The position numbers and the translations under genes are program-made. A model generated the notes under the pieces. The model saw nothing but the letters and a program-made list of their open reading frames with translations. It did not search any database and had not been told where the DNA came from. DNA of 64,000 nucleotides. It comes from Sphingopyxis granuli NBRC 100800 (GTDB lineage: Bacteria; Pseudomonadota; Alphaproteobacteria; Sphingomonadales; Sphingomonadaceae). Each line of letters begins with the position of its first letter. The first letter of the stretch is position 1. The DNA is taken from the NCBI RefSeq assembly GCF_001591045.1, contig NZ_BCUA01000011.1, positions 1 to 64,000 of the forward strand. The letters are read 5' to 3'. Shown here piece by piece: positions 38,430-39,117 of the stretch.

Positions 38430-38638
38430 CCTGCTTCACCCCGTTTGCATGGCGCGCGACGGCGCCTTCGTTCTTGTCTTGTTCGACTCGGGGCGAAGCC
38501 CCAGCCTAGCATCTTTCGGCGCGTCGGGTGGCACATATTTGGCGCACCACGTTCTTTTCCCGCCCCTCTGCACGAAGAGCGACGGAAATCCGCCATTTGC
38601 AGCCAGATACAATTTCTTGGGCCCCCCCGACGGATCAC

Positions 38639-38675
38639 CCACCACCTATAGTGCCACTTCGGCGCAGGGATGCAA
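38639..38675 (-). promoter_or_regulatory. nrdA promoter overlapped by a possible NrdR box
   Basis: On the minus strand TTGCAT (38670-38675) and ACTATA (38647-38652) are 17 bp apart. The -10 region is embedded in GCACTATAGGTGGTGG (38639-38654), which matches the NrdR consensus ACACWATATATWGTGT at about 11 of 16 positions. A second box at the usual spacing is not seen, so the NrdR assignment is weak. Confidence 0.4.
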
Positions 38676-38890
38676 GAGAGTAAATGCCCGATTACCGACT
38701 CGATTCGTCGCTGATTTGATTCGGTTCATCGCTCGCGCACGCTCCGCGACGCGCGCCGGTCACGCTATTCCGCGGGTTCGCCGCATTCAGGTGCGTGGCC
38801 GTCAGCGGCCGTGTCACGGCAGGGAGCGGGACGGGGGCAGTGGGCCCGGGGCGCGGACGGACATGGCTCCGTCTCGAATCGACTTTCGCC

Positions 38891-38922
38891 CAAAAAGAAA
38901 AGGCCCCGGCGATGCCGAGGCC
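38891..38922 (-). terminator. Intrinsic terminator of the 20-residue microprotein gene
   Basis: On the minus strand GGCCTCGGC-ATC-GCCGGGGCC (9-bp stem, one G-T pair) is followed by TTTTCTTTTT, starting 22 bp after the microprotein stop codon. Confidence 0.88.
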
Positions 38923-38943
38923 CTTCCTGCAGTTTTTCAAGGC

Positions 38944-39006
38944 TTAGGCGGACGCGCCGCCGATGGCGCTACCGGAGCCACCAAGCCAACCCCAAAACCA
39001 ACCCAT
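38944..39006 (-). CDS. 20-residue Trp/Gly-rich microprotein
   Basis: The frame reads MGWFWGWLGG-SGSAIGGASA. It has an AGGAG ribosome site eight bases upstream, a dedicated terminator just downstream, and an AT-rich upstream region with four TTAA motifs, so a short stand-alone transcript is likely. The aromatic Trp/Phe N-terminal half followed by a flexible Gly/Ser/Ala tail suggests membrane interaction. Its size puts it below normal ORF-calling limits. Confidence 0.65.
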   Translation of the reverse strand: MGWFWGWLGGSGSAIGGASA

Positions 39007-39117
39007 GATCAATCTCCTGTCGGCACTGCCCCACGAAAAGAACAGTTAACCGCGCGTATACCTTAATTTTTAAGGTAAATCGAGTCTTAACCAATGGGAT
39101 TGCCGCCAGATTGGCAG

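Follow-up and report, generated by a model that had tools for sequence, protein, structure and literature searches.

The window analysed here is a stretch of 64,000 nucleotides from Sphingopyxis granuli, and the gene under study lies on its minus strand (Table 1). The gene consists of an open reading frame (ORF) for a microprotein rich in tryptophan and glycine, MGWFWGWLGGSGSAIGGASA, a Shine-Dalgarno (SD) sequence, and a terminator stem-loop that begins 15 nt past the stop codon (38928-38896) and runs into a U-rich tail. In a simple scan by consensus rules this terminator went unlisted and no sigma-70-type promoter turned up. Four ORFs in the two strands of the window pass the fixed rule that we used for tiny ORFs (an SD, 9 to 45 codons and a hydrophobic-tryptophan core), and among these four the W.W motif occurs solely in the microprotein ORF. 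The predicted 5' leader (39018-39050) contains a short inverted repeat, ACTG...CAGT, which is a possible 5' hairpin and shows, by eye, apparent G-U variation in relatives. Two ribonucleotide reductase genes lie 3' of the microprotein, and the sequence CACCACCTATAGTGCCACT, which we take to resemble an NrdR box, is found upstream of nrdA at 38600-38680.

Table 1. Features of the microprotein locus and its linked gene in the window (conservation is given for the 30 aligned loci of the genus)
Feature	Position	Strand	Remarks
Microprotein ORF, 20 codons plus stop, MGWFWGWLGGSGSAIGGASA	38944..39006	-	ATG 39006-39004, stop 38946-38944; frame of 20 codons intact in 30/30
Shine-Dalgarno sequence AGGAGA	39013..39018	-	6 nt 5' of the ATG; AGGAG kept in 29/30
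Intrinsic terminator, 15-bp stem, 3-nt loop, U-rich tail	38890..38928	-	From RNA fold; stem conserved in the genus alignment
CtrA-box-like block TTAAGACTCGATTTACC (TTAA-N7-TTTACC), 17 bp	39074..39090	-	Identical in 25/30, at least one difference in 5
GANTC site (GACTC) within the box spacer	39082..39086	-	30/30
Possible -10 element TATACG, 13 bp past the box	39055..39060	-	TATA in 26/30; putative role
TTAA of the earlier note, within conserved GTTAACTG	39046..39049	.	30/30
Two middle TTAA of the earlier note (39063, 39070)	39063..39073	.	22/30 and 1/30
Gene of the linked CHASE2 / degenerate GGDEF-like / EAL protein, 762 aa	39118..41406	-	Pfam CHASE2 and EAL

Of 60 related genomes searched at the DNA level, 36 gave a match, namely 34 of the 36 genomes of the genus (the window's own included) and two others, which matched at the terminator end alone. 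In the alignment of 30 genus loci (28 distinct DNA sequences) the 20-codon frame is uninterrupted and free of indels throughout, with the consensus MGWFW[KR][FW][LM]GGGG[ST]GNGG.[QS]A and with M1, G2, W3, F4, G9, G10, G12, G17 and A20 invariant. The pooled pS is 0.403 and the pooled pN 0.160, and the resulting pN/pS of 0.396 was not reached in any of 200 shufflings of the alignment columns (mean 0.945). Judged from these substitution counts, the frame is under purifying selection. Column by column, the mean majority reaches 0.986 in the box, 0.859 between box and SD, 0.866 in the ORF and 0.879 in the terminator; it drops to 0.59 in the gap from stop to terminator and to 0.48 past the terminator. 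A real, conserved microprotein gene with an SD and a terminator of its own is thus strongly supported. The earlier note had called the 20-residue Trp/Gly ORF, its ribosome site and its own terminator from the window alone and had proposed a search for the peptide in related genomes; all three elements held up and the search returned the intact frame, to which we add the strand, which the note had not given.

The gene 5' of the microprotein encodes an EAL protein in all 30 genus loci, at a distance of 107-128 nt in 29 of them. In the remaining locus (L022, genome G002) the two genes are 1066 nt apart, with a transposase-like ORF, identified by eye, in between, which implies that co-transcription of the enzyme and the microprotein is not required. 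The promoter block of G002 (L089 / L022) stays beside the microprotein despite the insertion, with one change. In three genomes of the genus (G015, G017 and G316) the ORF was not found, and the enzyme matches begin only at about residue 388, which means that the CHASE2-EAL gene is absent; ORF and enzyme gene are therefore missing together. The downstream neighbours vary while the link to the enzyme persists. A motif search placed nrdA 3' of the microprotein in 26/30 genus loci, and it is not downstream in a second genus of the family (g65), so that nrdA is not a constant partner and its control by the microprotein was rejected. In one further genome (G004, L312) the enzyme frame carries one TAG, and the microprotein ORF is still open with its otherwise constant start diverged to MAWIWKWV (MAWIWKWVGGGGTGGGGLPA). 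This single case is possibly one of co-relaxation or a sequencing error.

To follow the microprotein beyond the genus, a profile of 20 genus peptides was searched over 298 genomes of the family Sphingomonadaceae. Matches at E<=4e-7 were restricted to the genus and all others had E>=0.05. The best of the weak matches, in genus g65, falls at the end of MAKSTKLAETSIDFWSWLLGGSGKDNAGGQG, with an orthologous EAL gene 5' and a terminator 3'; given the weak match at L063 (E 0.052), we turned to synteny. An enzyme search of 149 family genomes gave 67 with E<=1e-60, and reading of the DNA 3' of the enzyme genes revealed, in genus after genus, an SD, a tiny ORF and a terminator. Examples of the proteins are MAKRTKQPVRGFWDWLLGGGWSN (L107), MSIWDYLFGGRWGSGGSKG (L102), MFRSIWDWIYS (L135) and MWSFWDWLFPG (L151). 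The shortest, MWDMWKWLLG (L302, genome G359), has 10 residues and lies 64 nt past the EAL stop, with an SD present.

The tiny proteins usually share the core [FI]W[DE]W[LI], and glycines often come next. Among 72 of them (six being repeats, that is, genes fetched twice) the length ranges from 10 to 38 residues, W.W or W.Y is present in 64 and [FIL]W[DE]W in 40, and the codons of the core differ. One tryptophan is invariant and the second is kept in at least 90% of 30 chosen members that were aligned, and many of the longer proteins add a basic N-terminal tail. A terminator-like stem (at least 8 pairs, within 90 nt) follows 68/72 of the tiny ORFs vs 102/360 mononucleotide shuffles. The SD motif is present in 45 of the 48 tiny ORFs of the first set, which were picked with a motif filter and in part by visual inspection; L165 and L288 entered the second set by visual inspection. 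By this comparison of sequences, the microprotein of the window is a member of a large family of tryptophan-rich tiny proteins of 10-38 residues, which is apparently undescribed. A membrane span needs a hydrophobic stretch of about 18 residues, and such a stretch is not a property of this family, in which 37/72 proteins have at most 18 residues in total.

The linked enzyme retains the EAL domain residues. In a column comparison of 50 ORF-bearing enzymes (L123, described below, counted among them) and 19 paralogues, residues E539, N597, E629, E632, D659, D660, K680, E716 and Q736, which are presumably those of the EAL active site, were among those kept in at least 93% of both sets, and none of the 69 enzymes had a GGDEF motif. 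The linked enzyme should therefore be a c-di-GMP phosphodiesterase with a degenerate GGDEF part. Among 69 enzymes with an adjoining tiny protein, ten stand next to one that has lost its core, as judged by a pattern test on the tiny proteins, and these ten enzymes are further from the consensus (identity 0.396 vs 0.451; Mann-Whitney p=0.0005, uncorrected for kinship). By part, and likewise uncorrected for kinship, the divergence gave p=0.0003 for the linker and GGDEF-like region, p=0.0005 for EAL and p=0.03 for CHASE2.

The tiny ORF accompanies one kind of this enzyme. Twenty loci in a tree of 69 enzymes had no tiny ORF, and 19 of these grouped in one clade with a support of 100, the exception being L123. 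A quick tree of 92 enzymes, rooted at the midpoint only, showed the tiny ORF in 0/22 members of the paralogue clade and in 69/70 of the others, with L123 counted as lacking the ORF and L089 (G002) as having it despite the insertion. The linked gene resembles other CHASE2-containing EAL proteins in its conserved EAL residues, but differs from those of the paralogue clade in the microprotein that accompanies it. Left out of the larger tree were L143 and L294, which are short, seven repeats, and four loci missed by the EAL filter, of which L296, L297 and L300 have tiny ORFs and L289 has none. On the midpoint-rooted tree the labels need two changes, and so fit either an ORF-bearing clade with a loss at L123 or a loss of the ORF in the paralogue clade. 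Outside the paralogue clade, only the enzyme L123 (genome G116) has no tryptophan core beside it; its locus keeps the promoter block and the terminator, and at the usual place carries a GTG frame, MIDLIAIALGSRRGS, with no tryptophan. Both kinds of enzyme occur in eleven genomes of the tree, and the ORF goes with the first kind only. The fixed rule passed the picked ORF in 45/48 loci (not in L117, L131 and L139) and found none in the 20 ORF-less loci. These distributions indicate that the tiny protein is linked to one cognate membrane protein.

Searched over the 149 genomes, a profile built on 30 tiny proteins matched 29 places at E<0.005. Of these, 28 adjoin these enzymes; the 29th is at a contig end and matches a counted sequence over the stretch shown. 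No detached copy was thus found at E<0.005 with this profile, which is insensitive and missed the window's own ORF. Since the profile was built from enzyme-linked members and misses divergent ones, the result only suggests that detached copies are rare. Flagellin genes were detected in 99/149 family genomes, and a strict tie to flagella was rejected, because enzyme and tiny ORF are present in G069, G070, G095, G098, G105, G120 and G122, among the genomes without flagellin that were listed (20 of 50).

The control region was also compared. The earlier note had described four TTAA motifs at 39046, 39063, 39070 and 39087 in a symmetric 17-7-17 arrangement and had read them as a structured operator. 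The positions are right, and the region upstream of the ORF is highly conserved, so that the idea of a structured control region holds in essence. The motifs themselves are kept in 30, 22, 1 and 28 of the 30 genus loci, the one at 39070 occurring in the window's own locus alone. The symmetric set of four is therefore particular to this genome and was rejected as a conserved unit. The conserved element is instead TTAA-N7-TTTACC, with GANTC, the methylation site of CcrM, in its spacer, and it resembles a CtrA site. In Alphaproteobacteria the CtrA consensus is TTAA-N7-TTAAC, as given in passages of two reports (PMC7200025, PMC9437464). The genus box differs from it in its second half, which is TTTACC rather than TTAAC in 29/30 loci, and the plain N7 dyad is missing in some lineages, such as Altererythrobacter and similar ones, in which the upstream motif is different. 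At L018 the first half of the box is lost and the second half reads TTAACC.

Family-wide, TTAACC/GGTTAA is present in 42/48 intergenic regions, which share descent and are not independent, vs a mean of 3.75 and a maximum of 10 in 100 shuffles and 1/19 in the paralogue regions (first 105 nt). At least 8 of the 10 positions of TTAA-N7-TTAACC are matched in 36/48 regions (shuffles: mean 5.4, maximum 12; paralogues, first 105 nt: 1/19). GANTC showed no enrichment across the family (14/48; shuffles: mean 8.5, maximum 18; paralogues: 4/19). The promoter thus appears to carry a CtrA-type dyad or half-site beyond chance, as in genes controlled by CtrA, and CtrA would be expected to bind it.

We also explored how far the tiny proteins extend outside these loci. 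The pattern GFW[DE]WL..GG, searched in one genome per species, returned 81 stretches, 80 of which were listed: 41 in frames of at least 90 codons and 39 in shorter frames. Among the latter, 23 are tiny ORFs with an ATG. One of them comes from a MAG labelled Rhodospirillales and the rest from records labelled as sphingomonads, among which are Blastomonas, Sphingobium, Sphingorhabdus, Parasphingopyxis, Altererythrobacter, Alteraurantiacibacter and Sphingosinicella. An EAL gene lies upstream in 22 of these 23, and for L211 the upstream region lies beyond the available stretch. The other 16 short-frame stretches, from other groups, have no EAL signatures upstream, with possible start codons in some.

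A search of the order beyond the family gave matches on the EAL side only, and reading downstream at L305-L307 yielded one chance ORF that passes the rule (L307), with the core absent. In a class search of 289 genomes, matches at E<=0.05 occurred in 28, including one family member, and seven of the other matches, read by eye, lacked the tiny-ORF arrangement; the profile missed the window's own genome, and its silence is therefore weak evidence of absence. Within the limited sensitivity of the order and class searches, no convincing homologue was found outside the family. Pfam and NCBIfam returned no family for the genus consensus peptide or for the 18 of 30 members that were scanned, the other 12 being under 20 residues. 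A PDB sequence search gave four matches, all at an E of at least 0.054 and taken as chance; three are glucose-6-phosphate isomerases. Six peptide strings had no occurrence in the literature searched, which held no microprotein paired with Sphingomonadaceae and nothing joining CHASE2, EAL, phosphodiesterase and Alphaproteobacteria; most subscription papers and bioRxiv preprints were outside its scope, and the family may be in print elsewhere.

We propose, at about even odds, that the gene yields a translated, CtrA-controlled microprotein of this family, which serves the adjacent CHASE2-EAL phosphodiesterase as a small regulatory partner. The microprotein would be made from a short mRNA of its own, predicted at roughly 150 nt and defined by the promoter with the CtrA-type box, the SD, the ORF and the terminator, and its most likely partner would be the c-di-GMP phosphodiesterase encoded upstream. 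Its tryptophan-rich segment might rest on the membrane or in a hydrophobic groove of the enzyme; FWDWL, the core, is not long enough for a membrane span and suits a membrane surface or such a groove. The breakdown of c-di-GMP would thereby be tied to CtrA activity, that is, to the motile/sessile or cell-cycle state. The argument from linkage is strong; the physical partnership and the effect on activity are inferences. Linkage and a shared control region could alternatively reflect co-regulation without contact.

MgrB, KdpF and CydX are membrane microproteins that regulate an adjacent or cognate enzyme or sensor. The tiny W-x-W proteins are like them in being very small, dedicated to one membrane protein, often encoded next to its gene and easily missed by annotation. 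They differ in that about half of them are too short for a membrane span, in having no Pfam or NCBIfam match, and in their target, which would be a c-di-GMP phosphodiesterase.

The alternative that survives best, to which we attach a real but clearly smaller chance, is that the microprotein is functional and CtrA-controlled and acts elsewhere, for example at the pole or on pili, envelope or division proteins, and adjoins the enzyme since both serve one programme. The conserved promoter region, the separate terminator and the persistence of the ORF past the G002 insertion and the G004 TAG agree with this, but the link to one enzyme set only, the joint absence of enzyme and ORF in three genomes of the genus and, as far as the insensitive profile goes, the lack of detached copies argue against it. 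An exported peptide that serves as ligand of CHASE2 is unlikely. CHASE2 is a predicted extracytoplasmic sensor domain, the genes of such a peptide-receptor pair would adjoin as they do here, and hydrophobic residues abound in these short peptides; however, no export signal is visible by eye in the members of 10-20 residues, variation within the genus is small, unlike that of strain-specific pheromones, and the divergence that accompanies core loss is weakest in CHASE2.

It is very improbable that the frame is incidental to a conserved small RNA or to a conserved 3' end of the enzyme mRNA. The upstream block and terminator are as conserved as the ORF and the fold has a z-score of -2.06 (5/200 shuffles as stable), but this reading does not account for a frame without indels and with a synonymous excess in 30 loci, nor for a protein core that stays constant across the family in varied codons, and the identity of a known RNA family was rejected, as Rfam gave nothing for the region at gathering scores. 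Least credible of all is attenuation, in which ribosomes stalling at the Trp codons would govern the terminator and hence the next gene: as in trpL, the Trp-rich leader peptide, the microprotein is short, with Trp codons and a terminator past the stop, but residues other than tryptophan are conserved as well and there is no constant same-strand gene downstream, since the ten longest downstream ORFs scanned (at 10 of 20 loci listed) gave seven Pfam matches that were all different, four of them on the opposite strand and none a trp gene.

Under the preferred reading, a partnership with the phosphodiesterase, the W-x-W motif is nearly the whole protein, down to the ten residues of the shortest member, and it would form a dedicated, CtrA-timed subunit or ligand of the enzyme, a proposal that we hold as likely to be right as wrong. 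Gene finders usually miss proteins of 10-20 residues, and a conserved family of this size can thus stay unseen in well-studied bacteria. Its fixed address directly 3' of one kind of phosphodiesterase makes the gene deletable, taggable and testable. The CtrA pathway reportedly controls motility and biofilm in Sphingomonas melonis, going by the title of a 2015 paper (Francez-Charlot) cited in PMC9437464 and PMC7200025, and CtrA is dispensable in that species (PMC7200025). To our knowledge, such tiny proteins would rank among the smallest conserved regulatory proteins. If the proposal is true, the family would show the lower size bound of a selectable protein and would connect the CtrA pathway directly with an enzyme of c-di-GMP breakdown.
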